DNA of 64,000 nt from a virus. Under the pieces are notes generated by a model that saw nothing but the letters and a program-made list of their open reading frames with translations, searched no databases and was not told the DNA's origin. Where the stretch lies: positions 62,001-126,000 of IMG/VR virus record IMGVR_UViG_3300027736_000024; one strand, given 5' to 3'. The position numbers and the translations under genes are program-made. Positions within the stretch are counted from its first letter, which is position 1; every line of letters starts with the position of its first letter. Positions 7,807-57,804 of this stretch are shown here, piece by piece.

Positions 7807-8202
7807 GGGGATAACCGGTATCGATCTGAATGATGAGATAATACCACATGCAGGCGTTTGGTAGAGTCGCCTTAGAAAACTGCAAACAATAACTGACGAA
7901 ATGTCAACAATGACCTTCGAAGACTTAATGTCTTTCGTAGGCGCTGATTACGCTCTAGCAGCCTAGTCCGCATCGGGTGGTAGAGAACCTAGGAACAGAA
8001 CACAACAGCGAGTCATACGCTAAAGAGATGGCATCCGGACGCATATTGCGAGCCGTAGTTTTCTTGATAGTCATAAAATCAAGTGGTGGAAACGACCATA
8101 AAGGTCAGCCCTTACTGATCAAAAGCAATTTAGATCTAAGCATGTGAGACGTTGGTGTTATTATCACTTTTAGAGACGTGGGTTCGAATCCCACTATCTC
8201 CA
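7807..8202 (+). ncRNA. ssrA: Transfer-messenger RNA (tmRNA)
   Basis: Rescues stalled ribosomes and tags the nascent chain for proteolysis. The tRNA-like ends pair as GGGGATA (7807-7813) with TATCTCC (8195-8201); A8202 is the discriminator and CCA is not encoded. The T arm is GTGGG-TTCGAAT-CCCAC and the 5' domain has the GGTATCGATCTG signature. The tag frame starts at Gly codon GGC 7940 and reads GADYALAA, stopping at TAG 7964-7966; TCGTA before it is the expected resume context. Total length 396 nt. A phage-borne tmRNA with a shortened Gly-first tag ending in the ClpXP degron ALAA is unusual. Confidence 0.95.
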
Positions 8203-8271
8203 CTTAAAATATATATTTTTATTATTTTAAATTTATTTGTACATTTAATTAATAATCAAAACAAATAAAAA

Positions 8272-15402: not shown

Positions 15403-16767
15403 ATGAAAGAAGCATATCAAGATTTAGAAGGTTATAAAAATAGTTTAGTTACCGAGAAACAAATTTTAGAATTAGTAGATAAATTTATAAAGCAAAAGCA
15501 TAGTAGAAAATCTTGGGAAGCTGGTAAAGATTGGGTACAATATGCTGGCCCTTATTTTTCCTCAGATGAGTATGTAGCTGCTGTTAAAAGTTTATTAACT
15601 GAGTGGTTAGTATTAGGAGCAGAAGCAAATAAATTTGAAACTAAATTTCCTAAAAAGTTTGGTAAAACTTTTGGTCTATTAGCAAATTCTGGATCTAGTG
15701 CTAATTTACTTATGATGTTAGCATTAACATCTAAAAGAGGGCATAATCTTCCTAAAGGAACAAAAGTAATTACTCCTATTGCAGGATTTCCAACAACAAT
15801 TAATCCTATATTGCAAGTAGGATTTACTCCGGTATTTGTAGATATAGAACTTAAAACTCTTAATCTAGATTTAGATCAAGTAGAAAAAGTTTGTATTGAT
15901 AATCCTGATGCTAAGATTATTACCTTTGCTCATGTACTTGGAAATCCTCCTAATATGAATAGATTAATGGAGATAGTTGAAAAGTATAAATTAATATTAT
16001 TAGAAGATTGTTGCGATGCCTTAGGATCTACGTATGAAGGGAAACCTTTAGGATCTTACGGAGAATTAGCAAGTTGCTCATTTTATCCAGCGCATCATAT
16101 GACTATGGCAGAAGGAGGATTTGTTGCTTGTAAAGATGAAAATACAGAAAAGATTATTAGAAGTTTTAGAGAGTGGGGTCGTGGTTGTTATTGCATTGGT
16201 AAACAAAACTTATTAGAAAAAGGATCATGCGGTTGTAGATTCAATACATGGCTACCATCACTACCTAATGATTTGTTCGACCATAAATATGTCTATGAAG
16301 AGATTGGCTATAATTTGAAACCCATTGAGCTTCAGGCAGCAATTGGATTAGTACAAATGGAAAAACTTGATGAGATTGGTAGACTTCGTAAAGAAAATTA
16401 TAAAAATCTATTTAGTGCATTTAAAAAGTACGAACAATACTTTCATTTACATGAAGCACAACCAGGAGCAGATGTAGATTGGTTCGCATTTCCTGTAACA
16501 CTTAAAGATGATGCACCTTTTAAGAGATCTGATATTTGTCAATTTTTTGAAGCAAATAAAATACAAACAAGACCATATTTTGCAGGAAATATTATGCTAC
16601 AACCAGCGTATGAAGGTTTAATGGATCCAGTAGAAGTTGTTACTAAATTTCCAATTGCAAGGAAAGTAACCACAGATACATTTTTTCTAGGAACATCACC
16701 AGTAATTAATAAACAAAAAACAGATTATATAGAATCAATTTTAGACAATTATATAAATACACTATGA
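15403..16767 (+). CDS. rfbH: RfbH/AscC-type NDP-4-keto-6-deoxyhexose 3-dehydrase
   Basis: Aspartate-aminotransferase-fold enzyme of the DegT/StrS group. In SFYPAHHMTMAEGG the PLP-binding Lys is replaced by His231, the mark of PMP-dependent C-3 dehydrases, which remove a hydroxyl instead of transaminating. Cys204, Cys262 and Cys264 have the C-x57-C-x-C spacing of the E1 [2Fe-2S] site, with Cys276 and Cys278 nearby. Known E1 enzymes make 3,6-dideoxyhexoses and need a ferredoxin-type reductase (E3), not seen here. 454 residues (typical 437). The substrate may be the GDP-4-keto-6-deoxymannose made by the next gene (as ColD uses) or a CDP sugar. Confidence 0.9.
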   Translation: MKEAYQDLEGYKNSLVTEKQILELVDKFIKQKHSRKSWEAGKDWVQYAGPYFSSDEYVAAVKSLLTEWLVLGAEANKFETKFPKKFGKTFGLLANSGSSANLLMMLALTSKRGHNLPKGTKVITPIAGFPTTINPILQVGFTPVFVDIELKTLNLDLDQVEKVCIDNPDAKIITFAHVLGNPPNMNRLMEIVEKYKLILLEDCCDALGSTYEGKPLGSYGELASCSFYPAHHMTMAEGGFVACKDENTEKIIRSFREWGRGCYCIGKQNLLEKGSCGCRFNTWLPSLPNDLFDHKYVYEEIGYNLKPIELQAAIGLVQMEKLDEIGRLRKENYKNLFSAFKKYEQYFHLHEAQPGADVDWFAFPVTLKDDAPFKRSDICQFFEANKIQTRPYFAGNIMLQPAYEGLMDPVEVVTKFPIARKVTTDTFFLGTSPVINKQKTDYIESILDNYINTL

Positions 16768-17741
16768 GTAAAAAAAGAGCATTAATAACAGGAATCAATG
16801 GAATGGATGGTTCACATCTAGCAGACTTTTTATTAGCAAGAGGAGACTATGAAGTATTTGGTCTTGAAAGAAGGAAAGCAACGTACTATTCACCAAATAT
16901 TTCACATTTAGCCGGTAAAATCACGCTCTTAAAAGGAGATCTTTCTGATCAAAATTCTTTATTAAGAGCAATAAAAGAATGTGAACCTCATGAAGTTTAT
17001 AATTTAGGAGCTCAATCATTTGTTGGAGAAAGCTGGGCAATGCCAGAACAAACATCTGATATTACTGGTTTAGGTGCATTAAGAGTACTTGAGGCAATTC
17101 GAGAGAATGGTAATAAAGAGATTAAATTTTATCAAGCATCATCTTCTGAGATGTTAGGTAAAAAAGGTGGAGTTGCAAATGAAGAAACTACATTTTATCC
17201 GTGCTCTCCTTATGGAGTATCTAAACTATATGCTCATTGGATTACTAAAAATTATAGGGAGTCTCATGGCATGTTTGCCGTAAGTGGTATATTATTTAAT
17301 CACGAATCAGAAAGAAGAGGACATGAATTTGTTACTCGTAAAATTTCTGATGGTGTAGCTAAAATTCATTTAGGTTTAGCAGACTATATTTCATTAGGTA
17401 ATTTAGATGCTTCTAGAGATTGGGGATATGCGCCTGATTATGTAGAAGGGATGTGGATGATGATGCAACAAGAAAAATCAGATGACTATGTTTTAGCAAC
17501 AGGAGAAACACATTCAATTAGAGATTTTTTAGATAATGCATTTAATTATGTAGGTATACAAGACTGGTCTAAATATATTAAAACAGATCCTAAATTCCTT
17601 AGACCAGTAGAAGTAAGTTATCTTTTAGGAGACGCAAGTAAAGCTAAAAATGTTTTAGGTTGGAAACCAAAAACACCTTTTAAAGATCTAGTAAATATTA
17701 TGGTAAAAAACGATATTAAATTATTAACTCAAAATAAATAA
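16764..17741 (+). CDS. gmd: GDP-mannose 4,6-dehydratase
   Basis: Extended short-chain dehydrogenase that turns GDP-mannose into GDP-4-keto-6-deoxymannose. NAD(P) fold GINGMDGSHL, catalytic Ser/Glu in SSSEMLG, YGVSK (Tyr-x3-Lys), and the Gmd-type NHESERRG and SRDWGYAPDY loops are present. 325 residues fit the family (about 340-370). It overlaps the RfbH-type gene by 4 bases, so the two probably act in series. Confidence 0.93.
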   Translation: MSKKRALITGINGMDGSHLADFLLARGDYEVFGLERRKATYYSPNISHLAGKITLLKGDLSDQNSLLRAIKECEPHEVYNLGAQSFVGESWAMPEQTSDITGLGALRVLEAIRENGNKEIKFYQASSSEMLGKKGGVANEETTFYPCSPYGVSKLYAHWITKNYRESHGMFAVSGILFNHESERRGHEFVTRKISDGVAKIHLGLADYISLGNLDASRDWGYAPDYVEGMWMMMQQEKSDDYVLATGETHSIRDFLDNAFNYVGIQDWSKYIKTDPKFLRPVEVSYLLGDASKAKNVLGWKPKTPFKDLVNIMVKNDIKLLTQNK

Positions 17742-17747
17742 ATCAAA

Positions 17748-18971
17748 ATGAAAGTTGTAACATTAGGAGATCACTATGTATCCGATTTTATTAAATCAGA
17801 ATCTGATTATCAAGGAAGAAAAAAGTATAGTTTAGATTTAGTATTAAATGAAGAAATAGGTGCGCCGCATCTTACTGAAATACCACCTTCAGAAACAATG
17901 TGGGGACAATATTGGTATCGTTCTGGAATTAATGCTACAATGACTAAAGAACTTGGAAACATTGTTGAAGAAATTAAATCAAGAATTAAATATAAAGAAG
18001 GTGATGTTTGGTTAGATATTGCATGCAATGATGGAACTTTACTTAAACAAGTACCTAATGAGTTTATCAAATTAGGTATAGATCCAGCAGACGATACATT
18101 TGTTGCAGAATCATCTAAAGTAGCTAACTCTATTATACAAGATTACTTTAGTTACGACGCGTATAAAAAAACAGGATGTGGAGATAAAAAAGCAAAAGTA
18201 ATAACTACAATTGCTATGTTCTACGATTTATTAGATCCTAATCCATTTATTAAAGATGTTATTAAAGTATTAGACGATAACGGAATATGGGTATTGCAAT
18301 TGTCTTATACTCCCTTAATGATTAAACAATTAGCGTTTGATAATATTTGTCACGAGCACGCTTACTATCATTCAATGGAATCATTTAAAAAATTATTTCA
18401 ACAACATGATCTAAAAATTGTAGATTGTAGTTTGAATGATGTAAATGGTGGTAGTTTTAGAGTTTATGTCCAAAAGAATATAGCAGATGTAACTTCATTT
18501 GGAACTAGTCCATTAAGAGACGTTTGTAATTTTAGAGTTCAATCACTACTTGATTACGAGAATGCTCATTTTAATATGAACGACATTAAGGTTTGGGAAA
18601 AATTCCAATCTGATATTGAAGAATTAAGAGAAAAAACTGTTGCCTTTATTAAGGAAGAAAAAGCCAAAGGTAAAGTTATTTGCGGATATGGTGCTTCAAC
18701 CAAAGGAAATACTCTATTACAATGGTTTGGTTTAGATCATACTTTGATTGATGCTATTGCTGAACGTTCTCCTTATAAATTCGGTTTAAAAACAATTGGA
18801 ACTAACATTCCTATTATCTCAGAAGAAGAAATGAGAAAATTAAATCCTGATTATATGTTAGTATTACCTTGGCATTTCATAGCTGAATTTATTCAAAGAG
18901 AAGACGAATATCTAAGTAATGGAGGAAAGTTTATTGTACCATGTCCTAAATTTGAAATAATAGGAAAATAA
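17748..18971 (+). CDS. Sugar C-methyltransferase (TylC3/NovU type)
   Basis: SAM-dependent methyltransferase that adds a methyl to a sugar ring carbon, usually C3 or C5 of a 4-keto-6-deoxy sugar. SAM site WLDIACNDGTLL; catalytic-region CHEHAYYHS and NGGSFRVYV are typical, and the C-terminal Rossmann half has GYGASTKGNT and ends with PCPKFEII. The N-terminal zinc-binding Cys cluster of family members is missing (407 residues). Directly after gmd, it would produce a branched, C-methylated deoxysugar. Confidence 0.9.
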   Translation: MKVVTLGDHYVSDFIKSESDYQGRKKYSLDLVLNEEIGAPHLTEIPPSETMWGQYWYRSGINATMTKELGNIVEEIKSRIKYKEGDVWLDIACNDGTLLKQVPNEFIKLGIDPADDTFVAESSKVANSIIQDYFSYDAYKKTGCGDKKAKVITTIAMFYDLLDPNPFIKDVIKVLDDNGIWVLQLSYTPLMIKQLAFDNICHEHAYYHSMESFKKLFQQHDLKIVDCSLNDVNGGSFRVYVQKNIADVTSFGTSPLRDVCNFRVQSLLDYENAHFNMNDIKVWEKFQSDIEELREKTVAFIKEEKAKGKVICGYGASTKGNTLLQWFGLDHTLIDAIAERSPYKFGLKTIGTNIPIISEEEMRKLNPDYMLVLPWHFIAEFIQREDEYLSNGGKFIVPCPKFEIIGK

Positions 18972-25009: not shown

Positions 25010-25966
25010 ATGAAAAAAGTAGTTTATGTAACAGGTTGTTTAGGTCTTATAGGAAGTCATATAACAAGAGCTTGTTTAAATAAAGGTTGGTATGTTAAAG
25101 GAGTTGATTCAATTACTTATGCCGCAAATGAAGATTTACTCATTGAATTTATTTCTAATCCTAAATTTTCTTTTGTACACGCTGATATAAATGATCTTAA
25201 ATTTTTATATGAATGTGATTACATTATTAATACTGCAGCAGAAACTCATGTAGGTAATTCAATTGCTAATTCAGATAAGTTCATAACTTCCAATATTAAT
25301 GGAGTTCATAATTTGTTAGAGCTATTAAGAAATTATAGACAAGAGACAACTAAAGTTCCTGTATTTTTACATTTTTCTACAGATGAAGTATATGGTGATA
25401 TTGAAGAAGGAGCACACACAGAAAGTGACCTTCTTAAACCATCTAATCCATATTCAGCTACTAAAGCTGCGGCAGATCAATTAATATTAGCTTGGAGCCG
25501 AACATATAAAATTCCTTATGTTATAGTAAGACCAACAAATAATTATGGTGTGGGTCAATATGTAGAAAAACTTATTCCTAAAGCTTGTAAGTACTTAACA
25601 TTAGATAGAAAAATACCTCTTCATAATGGTGGATCACCAGTACGTAATTGGTTACATGCTGGAGATACTGCAGAAGCAATAATTAAAATAATAGAATCTA
25701 AAGTTAAAAATGAAATATTCAATATTGCAGGAGGATATGAGCAAACAAATTTAGATACTATAAAGAAAGTTATTCATAATTATACAGGATTAAGTACATT
25801 TAATGTAGATAATTATATTGATACAGACTATTCTAGACCGGGACAAGACGTGAGGTACGCATTAGATGATAGTAAACTTAGAAATCTTGGATGGAAACCT
25901 GAAAAAAAGTTTGATATAGAAATTCATGAAATAGTTAGATACTATAAATCAAAATTTATATGGTAA
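25010..25966 (+). CDS. NDP-glucose 4,6-dehydratase, RmlB-like
   Basis: Extended SDR enzyme. NAD loop TGCLGLIGSHI (Gly-x2-Gly-x2-Gly-type), THVGNSI, catalytic STDEVYGD (Thr, Asp, Glu triad of RmlB) and YSATKAAAD (Tyr-x3-Lys), then RPTNNYG and the substrate loop RNWLHAGD. It probably makes an NDP-4-keto-6-deoxyhexose from dTDP-, CDP- or UDP-glucose. No nucleotidyltransferase is present in the window, so the activated sugar must come from the host or from elsewhere in the phage genome. Confidence 0.9.
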   Translation: MKKVVYVTGCLGLIGSHITRACLNKGWYVKGVDSITYAANEDLLIEFISNPKFSFVHADINDLKFLYECDYIINTAAETHVGNSIANSDKFITSNINGVHNLLELLRNYRQETTKVPVFLHFSTDEVYGDIEEGAHTESDLLKPSNPYSATKAAADQLILAWSRTYKIPYVIVRPTNNYGVGQYVEKLIPKACKYLTLDRKIPLHNGGSPVRNWLHAGDTAEAIIKIIESKVKNEIFNIAGGYEQTNLDTIKKVIHNYTGLSTFNVDNYIDTDYSRPGQDVRYALDDSKLRNLGWKPEKKFDIEIHEIVRYYKSKFIW

Positions 25967-26836: not shown

Positions 26837-28624
26837 ATGCTTAAAAAAGTAAGTGATCTTATTGCTGAGTTTTTAAAAGAAAAAGAAATTGATGTTGTAT
26901 TTGGTATTATAGGATCTGCCAATTCACATATATTTGATTCAATTAATAAATTAGGATACACTAAAATTATTAATACTCATCATGAACAAGCAGCAGTGCT
27001 TGCAATGGGAGCTTACTATAGAGCATCTGGAAAATTATCTGCTGCAATAGTAACTGCCGGCGGTGGTGTAACAAATGCTGTTACAGGCGTTGTAAGTAAT
27101 TGGGCTGATTCTATTCCTGGAATTATTATATCTGGACAAGAAAATTATAACTATGTTAGTACACAAGAAAACCTACGAATGTATGGTACTCAAGGATTAA
27201 ATATAACTAAGATGGTTAAAGATGTTACTAAATTGGCTATACCTTTTGATGATAATTCTGATATACAAACTACACTAGAAATACTTGATAAAGTAACAAT
27301 CGAGGGTAGACCCGGTCCAGTATGGTTAGATATTCCAATGAATTTACAGGCAAAAATGGTTCAAGAAAGAAATTGGAAATTTAATGTGCCAAAGAAAAAA
27401 TACTTTAATGCTGAAGATATTATAGATGAAATTAATTTATCAAAAAGACCGGTAGTAATAGGAGGGAATGGAATTAGATTATCAAAATCTAAAAAAATTT
27501 TCCAAAAATTTATAGATATATCGAGAATTCCAACCCTGTTATCATGGTCAGGTATAGATCTGCTAGATGATAATAATGAAAACTTTTTTGGAAGATTTGG
27601 TTTATATGGACAAAGAGCCGCAAACTTTATTGTACAAAATGCAGATCTAGTTATTGTATTAGGAAGTAGATTATCTCTACCACAAGTTGGATATGATTTT
27701 AGTCAGTTTGCAAGAGGCGCGAAGATAATAATAGTCGACATAGATGAACTAGAAGGGGCTAAATATCAAGTATATAAACATATAAAAGAAGATTGCTTTA
27801 ATGTAATATCAGGCATTATAGAAAAATCTTATATGATGTGGGGATATAAACAAGAATGGGTATCATATTGTCAAGTTATAAAAAATAAATATCCTCTGAT
27901 AGAAAACTATCACAAAGATAATGAATATCTGAACTCATATAGATTTATAACTAAGATGTCCGATTATTTAAAAGATGATCATATAATAGTAACTGATATG
28001 GGAACGGCTTTACTCAGTGGACATCAGAATATAAAAATAAAACAAGATCAAGTAATGTTTACATCTCAAGGTCTTGGTGAGATGGGTTATGGTCTTCCTG
28101 GTGCATTAGGAGCTGCTCTTGCATGCCCAAACAAGCCTGTGCTATGTATGAATTGTGATGGTGGTATTATGATGAATTTACAAGAGTTACATACTATAAT
28201 TGAAAATGAATTACATAATATAAAAATCATTATATTCAATAATGATGGTTATTTAATGATCAAGCATACACAAAAAATGCTATTCAAAGGAGACTATGTT
28301 AGTGTAAATAAAAAAACAGGAATTGGATTGCCTAATTTTAGTAAGCTATTACCTGCATTCGGATATGATTATTATGAATTAAAAGATTGGGATAGTTTAG
28401 ATTCTACAATGAATAATTTTTTAAATAATTCTAAAGCTGCTGTATTAGAAGTATTCATGGATCCTGAGCAAGACTTTATTCCTAAAGTAAAAGGAGTTCT
28501 AAAAGAAGATCTAACTATATTAGCTCCACCAATTGAAGAGATGTCTCCACTACTTTCATTAGATGAAGTTAGAAGTAATATGATAATAGACATTAGTGAA
28601 AAAAGTAAAATAATAAAGAGATGA
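26837..28624 (+). CDS. Thiamine-diphosphate enzyme, acetolactate-synthase/YerE-like
   Basis: 595 residues in three domains: PYR (catalytic Glu in HHEQAAVLAMG), a central domain (about 185-340) and PP (NCDGGIMMN...NNDGY metal-diphosphate site). Such enzymes decarboxylate pyruvate and transfer the acetyl unit. A biosynthetic acetolactate synthase would be odd in a phage; in this sugar cluster the closest logical relative is YerE, which adds a two-carbon branch to C4 of a 3,6-dideoxy-4-keto sugar, the kind of product expected of the RfbH-type enzyme upstream. Substrate is inference. Confidence 0.88.
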   Translation: MLKKVSDLIAEFLKEKEIDVVFGIIGSANSHIFDSINKLGYTKIINTHHEQAAVLAMGAYYRASGKLSAAIVTAGGGVTNAVTGVVSNWADSIPGIIISGQENYNYVSTQENLRMYGTQGLNITKMVKDVTKLAIPFDDNSDIQTTLEILDKVTIEGRPGPVWLDIPMNLQAKMVQERNWKFNVPKKKYFNAEDIIDEINLSKRPVVIGGNGIRLSKSKKIFQKFIDISRIPTLLSWSGIDLLDDNNENFFGRFGLYGQRAANFIVQNADLVIVLGSRLSLPQVGYDFSQFARGAKIIIVDIDELEGAKYQVYKHIKEDCFNVISGIIEKSYMMWGYKQEWVSYCQVIKNKYPLIENYHKDNEYLNSYRFITKMSDYLKDDHIIVTDMGTALLSGHQNIKIKQDQVMFTSQGLGEMGYGLPGALGAALACPNKPVLCMNCDGGIMMNLQELHTIIENELHNIKIIIFNNDGYLMIKHTQKMLFKGDYVSVNKKTGIGLPNFSKLLPAFGYDYYELKDWDSLDSTMNNFLNNSKAAVLEVFMDPEQDFIPKVKGVLKEDLTILAPPIEEMSPLLSLDEVRSNMIIDISEKSKIIKR

Positions 28625-29472
28625 TAATTAAAGCTGGAATTATAGGAACAGGAAATATTGGAACAGATTTATTATTAAAAATATTAAAGACAAAGGAAAT
28701 CTATCCAGTAATATTTGCAGGTCGTAGAATGGATTCAGATGGAATTAAAATTGCAGAAAGTAAAAGAGTCCCAGTAACTGATCAAGGTATTAATTATTTT
28801 ATAAAAAATCCTAAGTGCTGTGATGTAGTTTACGATTGTACAAGTGCGGCGGATGCTATTGAGCATGCTAAAATATTTAAAGATCAAGGAATTAAAGTAA
28901 TAGATCTAACACCAGCAAAAGTTGGACCTTTATGTGTTCCTAGTATAAATCCATCTATAATATTAGAAGAGTCTAATGTCAATATGATTACGTGCGGAGG
29001 ACAAGCCTCTATTCCTATGCTTAATTTAATATCTAAATATTGTGATAATTTAGAATATATAGAAGTTGTTTCACAAATTGCCTCTAAGAGTGCAGGCATG
29101 GCAACTAGAATTAATGTAGATTCTTATATTCATACAACAGAAAGAGCAATTAGACAATTTACTGGTTGCGATAATTGTAAAGTTATACTTAATTTAAATC
29201 CTGCAGAGCCATGTGTTGATATGCAGACAACAATGTTTATTAAATTTAAAACAATTGATTTTAATGGTTTAGTTAAAGAGATTTATAAAAAAGTAGAAGA
29301 GTTACAAAAGTATATTCCATATTACGAATTAGTCCTTCCACCAGTTATTAATGATGATGTATTAGTTTTAAGTATTAAAGTGAAAGGATCTGGGGATTAT
29401 CTTCCTGAATATGCAGGTAATTTAGATATAATTAATTGTGCTGCTATAGAAATAACTAAAAATTTATTTTAA
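28621..29472 (+). CDS. Acylating acetaldehyde dehydrogenase, DmpF/MhpF family
   Basis: 283 residues. NAD-binding start IIGTGNIGTDL and catalytic Cys in ITCGGQASIPML; DLTPAKVGP is also characteristic. It oxidises acetaldehyde (or propanal) with CoA to acetyl-CoA. It overlaps the ThDP gene by 4 bases and the aldolase gene by one, matching the dehydrogenase/aldolase channelling pair of catabolic meta-cleavage pathways, here inside a biosynthetic sugar cluster. It is a little shorter than DmpF (about 310). Confidence 0.9.
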   Translation: MIIKAGIIGTGNIGTDLLLKILKTKEIYPVIFAGRRMDSDGIKIAESKRVPVTDQGINYFIKNPKCCDVVYDCTSAADAIEHAKIFKDQGIKVIDLTPAKVGPLCVPSINPSIILEESNVNMITCGGQASIPMLNLISKYCDNLEYIEVVSQIASKSAGMATRINVDSYIHTTERAIRQFTGCDNCKVILNLNPAEPCVDMQTTMFIKFKTIDFNGLVKEIYKKVEELQKYIPYYELVLPPVINDDVLVLSIKVKGSGDYLPEYAGNLDIINCAAIEITKNLF

Positions 29473-30470
29473 TGGGTAAAATAATAATAACAGATTCATC
29501 TTTAAGAGATGGCAATCATGCAGTAAAACATACTATAAGTTTAGATAGTATTAAAAGATATTGCCAATTTGCAGATAGTGCAGAAATTCCAATTGTAGAA
29601 GTTGGGCACGGAAATGGATTAGGAGCTTCATCTTTATTAATTGGTCTATCACCATATACTGATAAACAAATATTAACTACGGCAAGAGAGAACTTAAAAA
29701 CAAGTAAATTAGGAATACATATTATCCCAGGAATTGCTACTATTAAAAAAGATATAGATCAAGCAATTGATTTAGGTGTAGATGTATTTAGAATTGCTAC
29801 CCATTGTACTGAAGCAACACTATCCAAATCTCATATTGAATATTTAAGAAATAAAGATAAAACTGTATTCGGAGTGCTGATGATGAGTGCTTTAGCTGAT
29901 GTAGAGACGTTGGCTAAAAATGCTAAGATCATGGAAGAGTACGGCGCAGATGCCGTTATTATAATGGATTCTACAGGAACATATTTACCTTCTGATGTTA
30001 AGGAAAGAATGGATGAATTAAGTTACACTTTAGATATTGATTTTGGTTTTCATGCACATGATAATTTAGGTTTGGCAACGGCTAATTCATTAGTAGCTGC
30101 TCAATGTGGAGCAAAATATATAGACGCTTGTATTAGAGGATTTGGAGCCGGAGCCGGCAATGCTCATTTAGAAATGTTAATTCCTGTTTTAGAAAAAGCA
30201 GATTTTGATATTGATATAGATTTCAAAAAAGTTATTATAGAAGCAGATAGTGTTATGGATTACTTAGTACCTAGTGCACCAATATCTACACCAGTAAATA
30301 TATTAACAGGACTAAATAGATTATTTTCAGGATTTGAAAAACCTATTATCAAAGCGTCTAAATTATTTGGTATTGAATATTCATCTTTAATATTTGAACT
30401 TGGAAATAGAAAGTTAGTTGCTGGCCAAGAAGATCTTATATTGGAGGTAGCACAAAAATTAAAGAAGTGA
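29472..30470 (+). CDS. 4-hydroxy-2-oxovalerate aldolase, DmpG family
   Basis: 332 residues, TIM barrel with DRE-type metallolyase start TDSSLRDGNHA and the metal-binding HAHDNLGLATANS; the C-terminal communication domain is present (from about 275). Known members split 4-hydroxy-2-oxo acids to pyruvate and an aldehyde, which is tunnelled to the partner dehydrogenase; the reverse aldol addition is also possible. Its role may be to supply or use pyruvate/acetaldehyde for the ThDP enzyme or to condense pyruvate with a sugar aldehyde. Confidence 0.9.
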   Translation: MGKIIITDSSLRDGNHAVKHTISLDSIKRYCQFADSAEIPIVEVGHGNGLGASSLLIGLSPYTDKQILTTARENLKTSKLGIHIIPGIATIKKDIDQAIDLGVDVFRIATHCTEATLSKSHIEYLRNKDKTVFGVLMMSALADVETLAKNAKIMEEYGADAVIIMDSTGTYLPSDVKERMDELSYTLDIDFGFHAHDNLGLATANSLVAAQCGAKYIDACIRGFGAGAGNAHLEMLIPVLEKADFDIDIDFKKVIIEADSVMDYLVPSAPISTPVNILTGLNRLFSGFEKPIIKASKLFGIEYSSLIFELGNRKLVAGQEDLILEVAQKLKK

Positions 30471-31285
30471 AAATACTAGTTACAGGAGCTAATGGCTTTA
30501 TAGCAAAGAATTTAATCCCTGGTTTAAAAGATCACAATGTGATAGAAATTTCCAGGCAAAATTTAGATTTAAATAATAGAATTGAAGTAGATAGATTTTT
30601 TAAATACACTTCATTTGATATAGTAATGCACTGTGCTATATCTGGAGGTAAAAGAGATATAGTAGATGGTCCTGAAGTTTTATGGGAAAATTTAAGTATG
30701 TTTTATAATTTATTAAATAACAAAAGTAAATTTAAAAAACTGATTAACTTTGCATCAGGAGCAGAACTTGATCGATCACAATCAATTGATCTAGTTTATC
30801 CAGATTTTAGAGATAGATATCCTTTAGATTATTATGGTATGTCCAAGAATATTATTTCTAGAATAGTAGACTCAGAAAAAAATATGCACAACATTAGAAT
30901 ATTTAATGTTTTTGGGGATAATGAAAATGATCATAGACTAATTAAATCTAGTATTAAAAAATATATTAATAAAAAAGATATCATTATACACCAAGATAAA
31001 TTAATGGATTTTTTTTATATAGAAGATCTAATATCTCTAATTAATTATTACATTGATAATAACTCTTTTCCTAAAGATATTAATGCAGTATATAAAACAA
31101 AATATTATTTGTCAGAAATAGCAGGAATAATAAATAATTTATCAGACTATAAAGTAAATATTAAAATAGAACAGCCAGGTTTTTCTAGTTCATATATAGG
31201 AAAGGGAATAATAACAGAAATATTACCTATAAAATTTAAAGGTTTAGAAACAGGAATTACAGAAATATATAATAAATTAAAATGA
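30467..31285 (+). CDS. NAD-dependent epimerase/dehydratase (extended SDR)
   Basis: 272 residues, GTG start in a 4-base overlap. NAD loop TGANGFIAKNL, SGAE as the Ser segment, and YYGMSKNII carrying the Tyr-x3-Lys. It is short and divergent in the substrate domain. It probably reduces or epimerises the keto sugar formed upstream; YerE-type pathways end with a similar reductase (YerF). Exact reaction unknown. Confidence 0.8.
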   Translation: MKILVTGANGFIAKNLIPGLKDHNVIEISRQNLDLNNRIEVDRFFKYTSFDIVMHCAISGGKRDIVDGPEVLWENLSMFYNLLNNKSKFKKLINFASGAELDRSQSIDLVYPDFRDRYPLDYYGMSKNIISRIVDSEKNMHNIRIFNVFGDNENDHRLIKSSIKKYINKKDIIIHQDKLMDFFYIEDLISLINYYIDNNSFPKDINAVYKTKYYLSEIAGIINNLSDYKVNIKIEQPGFSSSYIGKGIITEILPIKFKGLETGITEIYNKLK

Positions 31286-32565
31286 AAAAAATAAGTTTTA
31301 TAATCAATGCTTCTAATAATACTTTAGATCATATAAAGTTATTACTTAAATCTTTAAAACAAAATCTACACAATAAAGAGCACGAAATCTTAATATTTGT
31401 AGATTCAGATAATGAAGGATTGACAGACTATTTAAGAAGTCAAAAATTAAATTTTCATGATCTTAAAATAATAACACATAAAATAAAACCTTGTATAGGA
31501 TACTCTAGGAATAGTAACCTATTAGTTGAACTAGCTAAACACGACATAGTAAGTTATCTTCAAAGTGATATGGTTATATCTACTAACTATGATCAAGATC
31601 TATTATCAGAGATAGAAGATAATTGTATCCTCAGCGCCACCAGAGTCGAACCACCATTACATGGTTATTCAGACAAGGTAATTACAATGGATTTCGGAAC
31701 CGATCCAAATTCATTTAATATGGATTCCTGGAATAGTTATGCAAATAAAAATAAAGAGAATAAATCTATAGAATACTTTTTTGCTCCATTTACTTTTTAT
31801 AAAAAAGTTTGGCTAAGCATAGGAGGATATGATACTCTATTTAGAAGATCTAGAGAGGATTCAGACTTACTTCAAAGATTTATACAATCTGGTATTAAAA
31901 TTAAACAAACGTTTAAAGCTAATGTATATCATTTTAGTTGCGTAAGTTCTAGAGGAAAAAATTGGTTTGATCAGAATAATGAAATAGCAAAAAAAAGAAC
32001 CGAGCTACAACAGATTGCAGATGGTATTGAGCTAAGAAGATTTATAAAAAAGTGGGGAGGTTTTAATCACGGAGAAAGCACACTATTAAAATTAGATATG
32101 GATCTAGTTATCAAAGATGATCGTGAATTAAATCCAATGTTTTTAGCGCAAGTAGAAGTTTATTTTTCAAGGGTTTGGCTAAAGACAGAAGAGCATAGAG
32201 AAAAGTGCATCAATCTATTTTCAAGAGAACATGATCCTGCAAATGAATTATTAGGTTTTACAAATCAAGATTGGGAGGAGTCAAAGAAATTTTATAACCA
32301 AACAAATTTTGCTAAAATTTATAATGTAGGTACACCTGAGGATTATAATATTAAAGTTGAAGTTGATTTTACTAATGTAGATCCAAAAACAGATGTGTTT
32401 ATACAAAATGTAACGCGCCTGGGTCAAATTATAGAACCTTATGAACCAGGAATATATGAACTAGGATCAGCTAAAATAGAGGTCAGGACTGTGGTAAACT
32501 TAGCTCAGGATCAAATCGTTATAAATAATCCTCCATTTGATTATTCACTATTATCAATAGAATAA
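31282..32565 (+). CDS. Family 2 glycosyltransferase with long C-terminal module
   Basis: 427 residues. GT-A core: KISFIINASNNTLDHIKLLL start, VSYLQSDMVISTNYD with the acidic pair near residue 97, FRRSREDSDLLQRF for the catalytic Asp. After ~260 there is an extra region ending EPYEPGIYELGSAKIEVR, similar to the end of the 23028 GT2. Last gene of the sugar cluster, overlapping the epimerase gene by 4 bases. Confidence 0.87.
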   Translation: MKKISFIINASNNTLDHIKLLLKSLKQNLHNKEHEILIFVDSDNEGLTDYLRSQKLNFHDLKIITHKIKPCIGYSRNSNLLVELAKHDIVSYLQSDMVISTNYDQDLLSEIEDNCILSATRVEPPLHGYSDKVITMDFGTDPNSFNMDSWNSYANKNKENKSIEYFFAPFTFYKKVWLSIGGYDTLFRRSREDSDLLQRFIQSGIKIKQTFKANVYHFSCVSSRGKNWFDQNNEIAKKRTELQQIADGIELRRFIKKWGGFNHGESTLLKLDMDLVIKDDRELNPMFLAQVEVYFSRVWLKTEEHREKCINLFSREHDPANELLGFTNQDWEESKKFYNQTNFAKIYNVGTPEDYNIKVEVDFTNVDPKTDVFIQNVTRLGQIIEPYEPGIYELGSAKIEVRTVVNLAQDQIVINNPPFDYSLLSIE

Positions 32566-51730: not shown

Positions 51731-52423
51731 ATGAAACTCAGTAAGATACTAGAAGGAGAATATGGAAATATATTATTTGGAGATAAAGATGATCCTGCAA
51801 AATTTGCTAAAATGCAAGGCGTGAAACCTGGCTCAGAACCAGATTTACCGGAAGAAAAAAAACTATTACTTCTATTAAAAAAATGGACAGTAAATCCTGC
51901 ACATTCTATACAAGATCTTTATAAAATTAGAGGGAAGCTAAAATCATTAGCAAACGAATATCCAAAAATATTAAAACCTAGTACTCCAAATGGTACTATA
52001 ATTTATAGAGGATTAACAAGTACAAATCCCCAAATAGAATCTCAAGTAAAAGCTTCAAATCCAGAAGATTGGATAAAAGCAGGTCGTTTATATATTTTAA
52101 AAACTCCCATAAAATATATTCCAAGAAGCGATATTCAGTCTTGGTCAACAAGGATGGAAACAGGCATGTACTCCTTTGGGCAAGGAGGAATGTTAATATC
52201 TAAGCAAAACGAAGAATACATGATGAATCAAGAAGCGCTATCTATACTATATCCATTGAGTGAAGACGAGATACTTCACTTTGGAAAAAACTATGATCAA
52301 AATGTATATTTTGCAGGTATTGACATATCAAATACAATAAGAAAATATAGTAAAAAATTAGCAAATGTAAAATCTGTATCTGACAGAAGTAAAGATTTGG
52401 ATATGAAATCTATAATTAAATAA
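51731..52423 (+). CDS. Putative ADP-ribosyltransferase with capsid-targeting-like leader
   Basis: 230 residues. The leader MKLSKILEG ends in I-L-E before Gly, an (I/L)xE site as used by T4-type prohead protease. The body has the R-S-E set of arginine-type ADP-ribosyltransferases in order: Arg93 in IYRGL, SWST at 137-140, and the ExE pair Glu178/Glu180 in SEDEILHFGK. In T4, Alt has the same design (internal head protein, injected, ADP-ribosylates host RNA polymerase). Target unknown. First gene of a four-gene cassette. Confidence 0.78.
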   Translation: MKLSKILEGEYGNILFGDKDDPAKFAKMQGVKPGSEPDLPEEKKLLLLLKKWTVNPAHSIQDLYKIRGKLKSLANEYPKILKPSTPNGTIIYRGLTSTNPQIESQVKASNPEDWIKAGRLYILKTPIKYIPRSDIQSWSTRMETGMYSFGQGGMLISKQNEEYMMNQEALSILYPLSEDEILHFGKNYDQNVYFAGIDISNTIRKYSKKLANVKSVSDRSKDLDMKSIIK

Positions 52424-52433
52424 AATAATCTCA

Positions 52434-53597
52434 ATGAAACTCAGTAAAATATTAGAATCTATCCTAGATGAATTAAACGTCCCAAAACCTGAGGATGCAT
52501 ATAAATTCTATAAAATAACAAAAAAGGATCTAGGATATGGTACCATGCACACTTATGTGTATGAAAATGTAAATGGAGATCTAATGGAAATCTCTAACAT
52601 GGTAACAAAACATCCAAAAGAACCTGGTAAATCAATATACTTGGCTTTTAAGAAATATGAAGGACCTGGATCTGATGAGGAAGAATACGATAATGAAGAA
52701 GAAGAGGAAAGGAAATATTCTGAGAAGACAGGAGCCGGTGACCTGATTAAGGTATTGGCAACTGTGGTACAGTCTGTAAAGAATACCATGAATAAAGAGG
52801 GTGGTGAAAATAAGATATATGCCATAAAGTTTAGCCCATCAGATAATAAAAGGGCTAACATATATCTACACTATATAAAAACCCTGTTCCCTGACTTCAA
52901 AGAAGAGAAAGGAGTGGAGGCTAAATTTACAACCTTTGTTAATAAGAATTTTAAGCCAAAGGTAATCTCAGAAATAGGAGATGCATCAGCTGAAGGATAT
53001 AGTCTGTCAAAACCAAATATCAAAGGACCAATAAATAAGGCATTAGACAAGATAAACAGTAGCGAAAGCAAAAGAAAATACGGAGGAGAGGAACCATTCA
53101 AAGTAAGATACACTGCCTCTGTAGGAACCAATAAATACCTTATAGACATATCAGGAATGGTAAGTAATGTAACTCCAGGCACTGTCCCAAGATTTACTTA
53201 TCTGTTTAATCCAGATGGAACTAGAAAACCAGGAAAGCTAGATATAAGAGTAGACTTTGATATGAAAAGGGATTCTAAAAAAGATGCCTTTACTTCAACA
53301 GAACTAAACGAACAGTACAAAGTATTATCCGCAGTATTTAATTCTGTTATTGACTTTGTAAACCAAACAGAAGCCACTACACCAGTAGATCAGATACTTA
53401 TGTATCCATCAAACGATAAAGGAACAGATACTGCAAGCAATTCTAAGAGAGGAAGATTCTATATGGTTTATATACAAAAGAATATCTCTAAACTTCCCGA
53501 TCCAAGCATGTGGGACGTAAACCTTAACATGAGTGATAACTACATAGACTTAAGTAGAATCCCTCCAATGCCAACAAAGAAAACAAAGAAGAAATAA
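52434..53597 (+). CDS. Internal-protein candidate with MKLSKIL leader and duplicated SEIGDAS-type domain
   Basis: 387 residues. The leader MKLSKILES is followed by a first domain (20-160) containing TGAGDLIKVLATVVQSVK and IKTLFP. At 177-185 VISEIGDAS appears, the same string that follows the leader of the next protein, then a second related domain. The protein looks like two leader-plus-domain units fused, with the inner leader partly kept. Acidic stretch at 80-93 (DEEEYDNEEEEE). Function unknown; Lys-rich end TKKTKKK. Confidence 0.72.
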   Translation: MKLSKILESILDELNVPKPEDAYKFYKITKKDLGYGTMHTYVYENVNGDLMEISNMVTKHPKEPGKSIYLAFKKYEGPGSDEEEYDNEEEEERKYSEKTGAGDLIKVLATVVQSVKNTMNKEGGENKIYAIKFSPSDNKRANIYLHYIKTLFPDFKEEKGVEAKFTTFVNKNFKPKVISEIGDASAEGYSLSKPNIKGPINKALDKINSSESKRKYGGEEPFKVRYTASVGTNKYLIDISGMVSNVTPGTVPRFTYLFNPDGTRKPGKLDIRVDFDMKRDSKKDAFTSTELNEQYKVLSAVFNSVIDFVNQTEATTPVDQILMYPSNDKGTDTASNSKRGRFYMVYIQKNISKLPDPSMWDVNLNMSDNYIDLSRIPPMPTKKTKKK

Positions 53598-54080
53598 ATG
53601 AAACTAACCAAGATACTAAAGGAAGTAATATCAGAGATAGGAGACGCATCTAAAGAACCATACCCATTTAAAAAAGATATGGATGATATGGATGAAAGAA
53701 AATACACATTTTTTACAGACTCTGGATTTGAATATGAAGTTAGGGTAGAAACTATAGGAGGAAGTCCTATGGAACCTGTAATAGCAAGGGTAGGATTTGG
53801 TGTAATAGATGGGACTGATGATATATCTTATGTGAAACAGACAGGAGAGAATGATGTATATAAAATAATGGCAACAGTAACTGCAATAGTAAAGCAGGAT
53901 CTTAAATCTAATGATGCTGATGTTATAGAGTTTTCTTCAAGTAAAAGAAGGAATAAGGGTGTGGATGAAGATCCAATGTCTAATGTAAGAACACAACTCT
54001 ACTCAAGATATATTAAAGGCCAATTCCCTAATGCTGAGGTTCAATTTGATGATTATGGAGATGTAAGGGTAAGATTATAA
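53598..54080 (+). CDS. Internal-protein candidate with MKLTKIL leader, SEIGDAS domain
   Basis: 160 residues. Leader MKLTKILKEVISEIGDAS with two possible (I/L)xE sites (ILKE has L-K-E; ISE). The body matches the first domain of the preceding protein: TGENDVYKIMATVTAIVKQ and YIKGQFP correspond to TGAGDLIKVLATVVQSVK and YIKTLFP. So the two are paralogues. Begins directly after the previous stop. Function unknown. Confidence 0.72.
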   Translation: MKLTKILKEVISEIGDASKEPYPFKKDMDDMDERKYTFFTDSGFEYEVRVETIGGSPMEPVIARVGFGVIDGTDDISYVKQTGENDVYKIMATVTAIVKQDLKSNDADVIEFSSSKRRNKGVDEDPMSNVRTQLYSRYIKGQFPNAEVQFDDYGDVRVRL

Positions 54081-54089
54081 TAAATAATA

Positions 54090-54665
54090 ATGAAACTAAC
54101 TAAGATATTAGAAGGAATACTAAAAGAGAATCTACTCCAGTTTTATCATGGATCTACAGATAAGAATCTAGCAGGTAAGAATGGAATACATGTAGGATCT
54201 AAACTTGCAGCAACTCAAGCACTCCAAGCAAGAATAGGAGTTCCTGCTGAAGGTGAATGGGATGGTACAAGAGAATACGGTAAGACTAAACTAGCAGGAA
54301 AGAAAACCTTAGATAGAAGAGAAAAGGAATTAGGATATTTCTTAAAAACAGGATATAATACTCAATCTGAAGTACCTGAAGTACCTGAAGAAGATTATTA
54401 CCCTGAAGACAGAGGTAAATTGCCAACTTATTCGGATGGTACACATATAAGTTTAGACTCTAAACCTATAATATTTCCTGTGAAGATCAAAGGACCGATG
54501 AATAATACCGTAAGAAACCCGAAGACAGATATGGCAGCAAACTCACTCATGATGAGAGGACTAAGGAAAGGAAATGCCCGAAACGGATTCTATTATATAA
54601 ATGATGGAGAAGATGAAGGATCAATATCTGCTGTAGTACCAAATAAAGATTGGTTAAGTTATTAA
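54090..54665 (+). CDS. Possible second ADP-ribosyltransferase-fold protein with MKLTKIL leader
   Basis: 191 residues. Leader MKLTKILEGILKE with I-L-E/G. Then FYHGSTDKNLAGKNGIHVGSKLA, where YHGS and the IHVGS segment are arranged as in H-Y-type ADP-ribosyltransferase relatives (His-Gly donor loop and later strand). I see no certain catalytic Glu, so activity is uncertain. The rest is charged and ends SAVVPNKDWLSY. Last gene of the cassette. Confidence 0.65.
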   Translation: MKLTKILEGILKENLLQFYHGSTDKNLAGKNGIHVGSKLAATQALQARIGVPAEGEWDGTREYGKTKLAGKKTLDRREKELGYFLKTGYNTQSEVPEVPEEDYYPEDRGKLPTYSDGTHISLDSKPIIFPVKIKGPMNNTVRNPKTDMAANSLMMRGLRKGNARNGFYYINDGEDEGSISAVVPNKDWLSY

Positions 54666-55867: not shown

Positions 55868-56113
55868 ATGCAAAATTCAAACAGGCCTTCGAGCTACCAA
55901 AAGTTGACTTACATCCAAAAGGTAAGTCGTATTAATCGCAAGCTCCGTACTGGAGACATCACAACCGTAGCTGAGACTACCGGTTTTTCTACTACTCACG
56001 TATCTGACGTGATCTCTGGTAAGTACTTCAACGACAAGATCGTTAATGAAGCTTACGACATGACGCGTGGTCGTCTGTCAAATGCTGTTAAGCTTACTAG
56101 CTTAGAGGCATAG
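55868..56113 (+). CDS. Helix-turn-helix DNA-binding protein
   Basis: 81 residues. TVAETTGFSTTHVSDVISGKYFND is an HTH of the repressor type (helix, turn at GFS, recognition helix). Basic overall with C-ending codons. Its promoter (CTTATATTTACTATATAAC at about 55822-55840) is a variant of the early one without the repeat array, and a strong terminator follows, so it is a monocistronic regulator. It is a good candidate for binding the 25-bp repeats. Confidence 0.75.
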   Translation: MQNSNRPSSYQKLTYIQKVSRINRKLRTGDITTVAETTGFSTTHVSDVISGKYFNDKIVNEAYDMTRGRLSNAVKLTSLEA

Positions 56114-56139
56114 TCTATTCACTTTTATGATTTGTTACC

Positions 56140-56169
56140 GGCCTGGGGTTTCTACCCTGGGCCTTTTTT
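56140..56169 (+). terminator. Strong rho-independent terminator
   Basis: GGCCTGGGGT...ACCCTGGGCC stem (about 8 pairs) followed by TTTTTT at 56164-56169. It lies between the HTH gene and the next promoter array. Confidence 0.9.
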
Positions 56170-56322
56170 ATAACCCATTGATACTCAATACTTTATAACC
56201 CATTGATTTCCAATGCTTTATAACTAGTTGATTGCCAATAAAAACTTTTGGAAAACACTAAAATAAATTTTTTTATGTCACCGGAATGGCTTAATTTTAC
56301 TATATAACAAATCAATAACAGT
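56167..56322 (+). promoter_or_regulatory. Early-type promoter with three 25-bp repeats, copy E
   Basis: The clearest array: TTATAACCCATTGATACTCA, TTATAACCCATTGATTTCCA and TTATAACTAGTTGATTGCCA spaced every 25 bases. They are followed by AAAAACTTTTGGAAAACAC, AAATAAATTTTTTTATGTC, 11 bases, TTAATTTTACTATATAAC and AAATCAATAACAGT before the ATG. Confidence 0.85.
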
Positions 56323-56745
56323 ATGACACAGATTATCAACACAACAAACATTCAAGAAATTGACTTTATCACAGGTAGAACAGGAGAGTACAGAGCTATA
56401 TCAAAGGTTAGAGCCGGGTTCATGGTAGTGGTTGAAGATCTAGGGATCCAAAATAAATGGTCTACAGGAGCCGAGTGGAAGAAGGCTATCGATGTTTTCA
56501 GAAGCTTTAAGAAAGGTGCACTCCAAACAATCCAATTCCGTGCAGAAGGTACAGATCATTGGTTGACTGTATTCGCCAAAGCAGGTACTAAGATTAAGAT
56601 CATGGATGCTCAGATGTTCAGAGATATGGAAGTTGGAGACATCAATCAAAATTGGAGTAACACTAATCTCTGTGATCAGAAACAATATGCCATGGTAAAT
56701 GCCAAGACTTGGGCAAGTAAAGCATTTGTTAAGAATGCTGCCTAA
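56323..56745 (+). CDS. Protein of unknown function, strongly promoted
   Basis: 140 residues, alpha/beta, with C-ending codons. Pieces such as GFMVVVEDLGIQNKW and TIQFRAEGTDHWLTVF suggest a small beta-sheet fold. Not recognised. Probably abundant early in infection. Confidence 0.65.
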   Translation: MTQIINTTNIQEIDFITGRTGEYRAISKVRAGFMVVVEDLGIQNKWSTGAEWKKAIDVFRSFKKGALQTIQFRAEGTDHWLTVFAKAGTKIKIMDAQMFRDMEVGDINQNWSNTNLCDQKQYAMVNAKTWASKAFVKNAA

Positions 56746-56812
56746 CTCTAAAGATAAATTTTTTACTCTCAAAATAAAGTCTTATATTACATTATAAATT
56801 AAAATAAAGGTT

Positions 56813-57616
56813 ATGTCAAAATTATCAATGTCAGCTATCAGTCCTATCAGTTTAGAAACAGCAAGAGAACAAGCACCAGCTATCTTCGCAACCTCACCGG
56901 CTCCTACAATCAAGAGTCCTAAGTATCAGTTCACACCTACCTTCGAGGTTATTGACCACATGAAAAACATGGGGTACGAGTTAACAGCTGCTAAGCAGTC
57001 TAGATCTGGAGTAGACCTTCGTAAGAATTGGGGTATCCACATCACTGAGTTCCAACATCCTGATCTCTACATCAAGGATCCTCAAGGTGATATCGAGGCA
57101 CGTCCAACAGTTGTACTAATCAACTCTCACGATGGTACACGCCCACTTCAATTTGAGATGGGTCTCTTCCGTCTTGTATGTTCTAATGGTCTGATCATCA
57201 AAGACAAAGACTTGGGATCATTCCGTGAAAGGCACACTAAGTACAACTTCCAAGAGGTTAAGGACCTGATCGATTCAAAGGTGTCTGGACTTCAAGATGT
57301 TGTGGGTAAGATAAGCCAATGGAATATGGTAGAGATGACAGACAAACAAAGGTATCAGTTTGCTGTAGAAGCCTTGGCCTTAAGATTGAATACCGATCGT
57401 CAGCCTGAACAGTACGAGGTACTAGATATCCTTAACGCTAAACGTAAGGTAGATGCCCAACCTACACTATGGCACACCTACAATACCGTACAGGAGAACC
57501 TGATCAAAGGCGGCTTCCAATTGAACAACCGTCAGGCTAGGGCTATCAAAAACCCTGTAGAGGATCTAGTTCTTAACCAAGGCCTATGGCAGTTGGCTGA
57601 TGCTTACGCTAACTAA
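56813..57616 (+). CDS. DUF932 phage/plasmid protein
   Basis: 267 residues. HDGTRPLQFEMGLFRLVCSNGLII is the DUF932 signature; the N-terminal segment and a helical C-terminus follow the family pattern. DUF932 proteins are widespread on phages and plasmids and may be ssDNA-annealing or replication accessory proteins, but no activity is established. Codon use is GC-richer and C-ending, as for highly expressed genes. Its leader has a promoter-like AAATTTTTTACTC and CTTATATTACATTATA. Confidence 0.88.
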   Translation: MSKLSMSAISPISLETAREQAPAIFATSPAPTIKSPKYQFTPTFEVIDHMKNMGYELTAAKQSRSGVDLRKNWGIHITEFQHPDLYIKDPQGDIEARPTVVLINSHDGTRPLQFEMGLFRLVCSNGLIIKDKDLGSFRERHTKYNFQEVKDLIDSKVSGLQDVVGKISQWNMVEMTDKQRYQFAVEALALRLNTDRQPEQYEVLDILNAKRKVDAQPTLWHTYNTVQENLIKGGFQLNNRQARAIKNPVEDLVLNQGLWQLADAYAN

Positions 57617-57804
57617 TCGGGTTAGAGAGGCGAGGTGCTAGTGCCTTACTAGTGCCTTGCTCTCGACCTTTAGCATCGAGCTAGCATGATGGCAAAGGGA
57701 TAGTTCTTGTAGATAGGGGCTTGCTGGCAGGGGGCCCCGCGTTGACCCATCCTGCACACCGGGGAAATTCCCAAAACCCCATAAAATATAAATATAAATT
57801 TACA
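57617..57804 (+). ncRNA. GC-rich structured intergenic region, candidate non-coding RNA
   Basis: 188 bases with far higher GC content than the window, no ORF of its own. A long stem joins GAGAGG (57625-57630) to CTCTC (57660-57664) and includes CTAGT/ACTAG; the loop region has a tandem CTAGTGCCTTA/CTAGTGCCTTG repeat. Further hairpins: CTCGA/TCGAG and GGGGC/GCCCC (57716-57738). It follows the DUF932 gene. A 3'-UTR-derived or independent RNA is likely; function unknown. Confidence 0.5.

Follow-up and report, generated by a model that had tools for sequence, protein, structure and literature searches.

We analysed a 64,000-nucleotide stretch of viral DNA (hereafter the window), which covers positions 62001-126000 of the 136,126-base IMG/VR virus record IMGVR_UViG_3300027736_000024. 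The contig is that of a T4-like phage, and its glycan cluster contains four overlapping genes in the order ThDP-DmpF-DmpG-SDR, which encode a thiamine diphosphate (ThDP) enzyme, an acylating acetaldehyde dehydrogenase, a 4-hydroxy-2-oxovalerate aldolase and an extended short-chain dehydrogenase/reductase (SDR) (Table 1). An earlier note on this DNA (the original prediction) had described overlapping ThDP, DmpF and DmpG genes with a fourth gene inside a sugar cluster, and our reading confirmed this arrangement. The ThDP, DmpF and DmpG open reading frames (ORFs) were intact within the boundaries first assigned to them, and the junctions were read in the sequence as ATGA at 28621-28624 (ThDP/DmpF), TAATG around 29470-29474 (DmpF/DmpG) and GTGA at 30467-30470 (DmpG/SDR). 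The ratio of nonsynonymous to synonymous polymorphism (pN/pS) of ThDP, DmpF and DmpG was 0.07-0.27 in four pairwise contig comparisons per gene, with DmpG lowest in 4/4 contigs (0.07-0.155). Because dozens of contigs share this order and these active sites and pN/pS is low, the gene set is not a chance assembly. Judged by sequence comparison, the four genes probably form a phage-borne branched-sugar cassette of the type that makes erwiniose, the ten-carbon branched sugar of Pectobacterium atrosepticum (available text of PMC8657720).

The closest PDB match of the ThDP enzyme was 8rph (544.6 bits), an entry titled 'Thiamine pyrophosphate-binding protein', with 44% identity (261/589 aligned), whereas acetohydroxyacid synthase (AHAS) II scored 242.8 bits. 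Residues V121, Y268, P293, Y297 and K567 of JanthE are named in the accessible sections of PMC12188165; since they fall on V/Y/P/Y/K of 8rph at an offset of one and the CDG motif is present, 8rph appears to be JanthE of Janthinobacterium sp. HH01. The window enzyme retains the equivalents of Y268, P293, Y297 and K567 (4/5) and the CDG motif with C440, and V121 is replaced by T118. Across the 65 ThDP sequences of DmpFG-bearing phages (window included), C440 and the residues Y286 and K550, which match the active-site Y297 and K567 of JanthE, were invariant (65/65), while Y257 and P282, the equivalents of JanthE Y268 and P293, varied. The enzyme fell under every curated cut-off among the matches listed (25 of 53 matching families). 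An acetolactate-synthase-like function, as first assigned to it, was rejected on these scores, the enzyme being far nearer to JanthE than to AHAS. The gene adjoins 4-keto-6-deoxy sugar genes in the window and in related viral and bacterial loci, and the enzyme is best regarded as a putative YerE-like ketone ligase of the JanthE type.

JanthE takes 4-hydroxy-2-oxovalerate (with benzaldehyde) and pyruvate, and its physiological substrates are described as unidentified (PMC12188165, in the sections available); acceptance of pyruvate is also given in the available part of PMC12247030. There, ErwE is reported to refuse pyruvate and to prefer 4-hydroxy-2-oxo acids in making erwiniose, whereas YerE prefers pyruvate. 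For JanthE, the gene neighbourhoods compared were those of related Oxalobacteraceae clusters. The YerE/YerF pathway of yersiniose likewise has a ThDP ligase and an SDR beside CDP-3,6-dideoxy-4-keto sugar genes; unlike the window enzyme, YerE uses pyruvate and has a GDG instead of a CDG motif, and Pseudomonas loci of the YerE type lack DmpFG.

DmpF passed the curated model TIGR03215 (321.6 bits; cut-off 282.25) and DmpG passed TIGR03217 (324.5 bits; cut-off 286), with further matches to AcetDehyd-dimer and to HMGL-like and DmpG_comm, respectively. In 18/18 aligned sequences, C125 of DmpF (within TCGGQ) and R12, D13, H16, H20, H194 and H196 of DmpG were invariant; we take C125 to be the catalytic cysteine and the DmpG residues to be metal/base residues. 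Family models, communication domain and catalytic residues are shared with the DmpFG/BphIJ pairs of meta-cleavage pathways (1nvm, 4jn6); unlike these, the phage DmpG forms its own clade, has no catabolic neighbours and is proposed to act in the reverse direction. None of the meta-cleavage neighbours sought (hydratase, ring-cleavage dioxygenase, semialdehyde dehydrogenase) was found among the cluster proteins scanned with Pfam; by contrast, locus L122 carries a hydratase gene. In a quick DmpG tree of 109 rows, with Shimodaira-Hasegawa-like approximate likelihood ratio test support only, 30 phage rows (window included) and contig L038 formed one starred set (support 98), separate from the remaining bacterial sugar-cluster rows; several plasmid rows were long and of unsure placement. 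Because the phage clade stands apart, the phage version of DmpFG would represent an old phage lineage and not a recent capture. The L038 contig, from a Flavobacteriaceae bin, has its DmpG within the phage clade, yet RfbF, RfbG and RfbH are present on it.

Viral loci were collected by scanning IMG/VR, and their counts are not dereplicated. The DmpG scan gave 32 loci, 29 of which also had ThDP and DmpF genes; in the other three (L027, L029, L030) the contig is cut at DmpG. Wider scans yielded 69 DmpF loci and 77 ThDP loci. DmpF and DmpG were both present in 65/77 of the ThDP loci, and in 61/77 they lay directly downstream on the same strand; an RmlB-like gene ended no more than 60 bases upstream of ThDP in 50/77. 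The order is thus shared, whereas an order private to this phage would have counted against the original prediction. L233 ends inside DmpF, L268 ends at ThDP, and L284 carries DmpG alone on the opposite strand. Nine further viral contigs (L236, L239-L244, L249, L250) showed DegT-ThDP-SDR without DmpFG, with a ThDP enzyme 57-60% identical to that of the window; a DmpG search of these nine phage records, run without a positive control, gave 0/9. Because of these nine phages, the core seems to consist of ThDP and SDR, with DmpFG as an optional cassette between the two. Among 50,697 annotated phage records none had the full set; the sole DmpF match there was a Salmonella chromosome contig, and the ThDP matches reached about 30% identity or less among the matches listed (20 of 42).

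Among bacteria, the ThDP-DmpFG gene set has a wide distribution in surface-sugar clusters too. A single scan of a bacterial genome collection, with the ThDP alignment as sole query, gave 78 ThDP loci, and DmpF and DmpG were both found in 72/78 (13 phyla). The other six were L060 and L108 (one partner, contig ends), L082 (a 4.3 kb contig), L104, L113 and L114. The original prediction had asked about company with rfbH, and this was borne out in bacteria: RfbH was present in 58/72 loci having DmpF and DmpG (subfamily queries) and in 43/44 of those of at least 20 kb. Among all bacterial loci of at least 20 kb (n=46), DmpFG occurred in 44, RfbH in 45, and RfbF, RfbG, RfbH, DmpF and DmpG together in 42; the median ThDP-DmpG gap was about 1.1 kb. 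Family models recovered RfbF, RfbG and RfbH in L038 and L058, RfbF and RfbG in L062, and RfbF in L068; ferredoxin-reductase-like (E3-like) proteins were found in L062 and L068. Six genomes with the cluster each had exactly one DmpG above the curated cut-off, and none of 14 control genomes had one above it. In phages, RfbH at no less than 50% identity was found in 21/33 records.

In the Pseudomonas set, a YerE-type ThDP gene lay beside RfbH in 8/199 genomes, with a GDG motif in L068, and the JanthE type proper was found in 1/199 (G033), with DmpFG in its cluster. We re-read six of the seven YerE-type genomes besides G033, leaving out G083, with wider flanks; DmpFG was present in 0/6 of these YerE-type loci. 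DmpG above the cut-off occurred in 3/8 YerE-type genomes and in none of the other 5/8. The G033 DmpG lies within the sugar cluster (360 bits), and those of G083 and G172 lie on other contigs (594-599 bits). Six further ThDP matches (L141-L146), at 35-37% identity to the JanthE type and all beside RfbH, had a NeuB-like gene and an AP_endonuc_2 or haloacid dehalogenase (HAD) gene in place of DmpFG (6/6 loci).

We take nahO to be an acetaldehyde dehydrogenase (DmpF) and nahM a 4-hydroxy-2-oxovalerate aldolase (DmpG). In the part of PMC6286560 available, a P. atrosepticum table gives rfbI/rfbF/rfbG/rfbH as ECA1421-1424 and hpcH/-/-/nahO/nahM/-/rfbX/- as ECA1425-1432. The second set is confined to a single group (9 genomes), which from the locus tags would be P. 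atrosepticum. As far as these sources describe it, the erwiniose pathway resembles the window in combining RfbH with DmpF/DmpG homologues (nahO, nahM) in one O-antigen cluster and in having a ThDP enzyme, ErwE, that uses 4-hydroxy-2-oxo acids; ErwE was compared by its published description. It differs in that the cassette is here phage-borne, with an RmlB-like dehydratase and no RfbF, RfbG or E3-like gene found. The ten carbons of erwiniose would be accounted for by six from a sugar and the four that remain when a C5 keto acid is decarboxylated. DmpFG beside JanthE or ErwE was not mentioned in the literature searched, which lay outside the original ErwE, JanthE and in-silico YerE papers, and aldolases were not mentioned in the available portions of the M. 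marinum literature.

The fourth gene had been called an epimerase. Its S97/Y123/K127 triad was invariant in 17/17 aligned sequences, and a PDB sequence search at 1e-6 gave no match. Structure prediction was applied to this SDR (mean predicted local distance difference test score, pLDDT, 90.8), and the top fold matches were GDP-4-keto sugar reductases, which at 13-20% identity is no more than suggestive of a 4-keto reductase over an epimerase. Given the gene order, triad and predicted fold, a YerF-like ketoreductase is more likely than an epimerase. In many related phages a family 2 glycosyltransferase adjoins the SDR.

Other sugar genes were then considered. The RmlB-like dehydratase scored 287.7 bits with TIGR01181, under the cut-off of 365.1; its top PDB matches were dTDP-glucose 4,6-dehydratases, and STDEVYGD and YSATK are retained. 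RfbH passed PRK15407 (457.5 bits; cut-off 423), matched 3bcx (E1) best in the PDB (335 bits vs 175 for a ColD-type dehydrase) and retains SFYPAHH and the Cys cluster. The GDP-mannose 4,6-dehydratase (GMD)-like gene scored 397.4 bits with TIGR01472 (cut-off 415), and together with the PF08484 C-methyltransferase it probably provides the cluster with a second nucleotide sugar. RfbF, RfbG and RfbI were not found in the phage cluster, which has the RmlB-like dehydratase instead.

Table 1. Features of the ThDP-DmpF-DmpG-SDR locus and of associated sugar genes (positions in the window)
Feature	Position	Strand	Basis
ThDP enzyme, 595 aa, proposed JanthE/YerE-like ketone-accepting carboligase	26837-28624	+	Pfam TPP_enzyme N/M/C
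DmpF-type acylating acetaldehyde dehydrogenase, 283 aa	28621-29472	+	TIGR03215, AcetDehyd-dimer
DmpG-type 4-hydroxy-2-oxovalerate aldolase, 332 aa	29472-30470	+	TIGR03217, HMGL-like, DmpG_comm PF07836
Extended SDR, 272 aa, proposed ketoreductase	30467-31285	+	Epimerase Pfam
RmlB-like NDP-glucose 4,6-dehydratase, proposed first step	25010-25966	+	TIGR01181, PDB matches
RfbH/E1-type NDP-4-keto-6-deoxyhexose 3-dehydrase, proposed 3-deoxygenation	15403-16767	+	PRK15407, 3bcx
Family 2 glycosyltransferase overlapping SDR, possible user of the sugar	31282-32565	+	PF00535
GDP-mannose 4,6-dehydratase-like gene and C-methyltransferase	16764-18971	+	TIGR01472, PF08484

In the pathway we propose, DmpF would reduce acetyl-CoA to acetaldehyde, which would be channelled to DmpG and condensed with pyruvate to 4-hydroxy-2-oxovalerate. 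The ThDP enzyme would decarboxylate this acid and attach the C4 acyl unit that remains to a nucleotide-linked 4-keto-6-deoxy sugar, at the C4 ketone. That sugar would come from the RmlB-like dehydratase, with RfbH probably carrying out a 3-deoxygenation here. The SDR would reduce the new side-chain ketone to give a ten-carbon branched sugar for use by the phage glycosyltransferases. Irreversible decarboxylation by the ThDP enzyme would pull DmpFG into reverse. Since neither RfbF nor E3 turned up in the phage, host dTDP-glucose and a general reductant would likely supply the pathway, and dTDP is a likelier nucleotide than CDP; in spinosyn work, a dTDP-acting E1 homologue reportedly functions with generic ferredoxin. 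The pathway probably follows erwiniose logic in a modular form, with NeuB-like genes or nothing replacing DmpFG in relatives. Comparative evidence gives good support to the prediction that catabolic-type DmpF/DmpG were recruited to make glycans and work in reverse alongside the ThDP enzyme.

Several observations weigh against this reading. RfbH lies 11 kb from the ThDP cassette, beside the GMD-like and C-methyltransferase genes, and at 50% identity or above it is absent from 12/33 phage records, many of them fragments, which makes 3-deoxygenation uncertain. No sugar-1-phosphate nucleotidyltransferase (PF00483) was found in the window's record (3/33 records were positive), and a search for an E3-like reductase, run without a positive control, gave 0/33, so that the phage would have to lean on its host. 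A single ThDP position, residue 359, separates DmpFG-bearing from DmpFG-less phages and is not informative; because JanthE takes pyruvate and no change in the ThDP pocket tracks DmpFG, pyruvate is a possible donor. Nor is DmpFG exclusive to sugars, since 8 Pseudomonas genomes have a DmpG of 50-55% identity that is not accompanied by the ThDP enzyme, and in 5 of them an aminotransferase lies next to it. Reduction of acetyl-CoA with NADH is uphill and requires the pull from decarboxylation.

Three other explanations were weighed. If the ThDP enzyme used pyruvate, as JanthE can (PMC12247030 and PMC12188165, as far as available), it would add a two-carbon, yersiniose-like branch, and DmpF and DmpG would recycle leaked acetaldehyde, which DmpF could oxidise to acetyl-CoA. 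The original prediction had offered such recycling as an option. We consider it unlikely: DmpFG was missing from all six re-read YerE-type loci and 5/8 YerE-type genomes had no DmpG above the cut-off, nine related phages retain ThDP-SDR without DmpFG, and 8rph, if it is JanthE, takes the DmpG product. Recycling would moreover have no need of DmpG, although pN/pS is lower for DmpG than for ThDP or DmpF. It is more improbable still that DmpF and DmpG are an auxiliary metabolic pair that feeds acetyl-CoA and pyruvate into infection and sits in the glycan cluster by accident. Both proteins do pass curated models of catabolic enzymes, and a report on a groundwater virome names a 4-hydroxy-2-oxovalerate aldolase among viral auxiliary genes (available text of PMC13303688). 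However, the scanned cluster proteins included no recognisable meta-pathway member, and the pair is tied to the ThDP gene in 61/77 viral and 72/78 bacterial loci.

The cassette may also form branches on an acceptor other than a 3,6-dideoxy-4-keto sugar, with the 3-OH kept or on a GDP sugar, in which case the product would be a new sugar and not erwiniose. We regard this as a variation on the erwiniose-type reading, with which its likelihood overlaps, and hold it possible but rather doubtful. The dehydratase beside ThDP is RmlB-like and not the CDP-specific RfbG, RfbH of at least 50% identity is missing from three large relatives of 103-136 kb (G021, G022 and G025), and a natural C4-branched sugar differing at C3 is described in the accessible part of PMC9912281. 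Against this, in several phages (L009, L021, L032) RfbH is the immediate neighbour of ThDP or of the accompanying RmlB, and it is present in 45/46 bacterial loci of at least 20 kb.

Returning to the erwiniose-type cassette, the 3-deoxy-2-keto acids produced by NeuB-type enzymes belong to the 4-hydroxy-2-oxo acids, and the replacement of DmpFG by NeuB in L141-L146 is possibly a swap of donor cassettes. The side chain of caryophyllose (name from the available part of PMC5706390) would fit a NeuB-type donor. We tentatively suggest a donor-cassette code, in which one core of ThDP ligase and ketoreductase is joined to an exchangeable cassette that makes the donor. No cassette might give a two-carbon branch from pyruvate, DmpF-DmpG four carbons, and a NeuB-like synthase with a phosphatase or isomerase longer chains; phages could carry and swap such cassettes, building rare surface sugars on the virion or the host envelope that alter recognition by receptors or defences. 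The proposed pathway offers 4-hydroxy-2-oxovalerate as a testable physiological donor for enzymes of the JanthE clade; their natural substrates are described as unidentified (PMC12188165, sections available). Judged by gene linkage in 13 phyla, a channelling pair well known from catabolism would serve to build a sugar and not to degrade one. Uncultured phages would carry the whole branch-making step, which none of the 50,697 annotated phage records searched does, making branched sugars a phage trait open to chemical search. The Pseudomonas replacement also offers a gene-based prediction of branch length.

Further layouts of these genes were seen in bacterial contigs. DmpG-DmpF-aminotransferase sets occur in L034, L036 and L133-L137, accompanied by ATP-grasp genes on the Phaeobacter and Leisingera plasmids; DmpFG may have a further biosynthetic role there, leading to a hydroxy amino acid. 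The Pseudomonas clusters L068, L075 and L079 have YerE-type (GDG) and JanthE-type (CDG) ThDP genes in tandem with one DmpFG pair. At 7265-9135 of L114, split transketolase genes lie directly upstream of ThDP, and DmpFG is not there. The short single-cell contigs L080 and L098 (Pelagibacter, Prochlorococcus) have ThDP and DmpG/DmpF on opposite strands, a layout (DmpG minus) also found in a few viral loci, and they may be viral DNA inside single cells.

Outside the window, the record carries, by PHROG match, genes for a tail sheath and for GroEL (the latter PHROG 5725; record 56074-57699, L118 16074-17699), together with DNA polymerase, PhoH-like and other phage-like ORFs recognised by eye. The only full-length relatives of the tail sheath among annotated phages were isolates of Flavobacterium phage immuto (Immutovirus; 4 records), with 51% identity over 96%; GroEL is also common to immuto. 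The glycan locus has the same frame in both phages, with a PD-(D/E)XK protein at 43% and two glycosyltransferases at 62% and 55% identity; unlike the window, the variable part in immuto has WecE-type aminotransferases and no match to ThDP, DmpF or DmpG. Because immuto shares the frame of the locus with different sugar genes inside, the host is probably a member of the Bacteroidota and the sugar genes would be a variable island within the glycan locus. The window also contains a transfer-messenger RNA gene at 7807-8203, with the tag DEMSTMTFEDLMSFVGADYALAA, and four consecutive ORFs at 51731-54665 that start near-identically with MKLSKILE or MKLTKILE.

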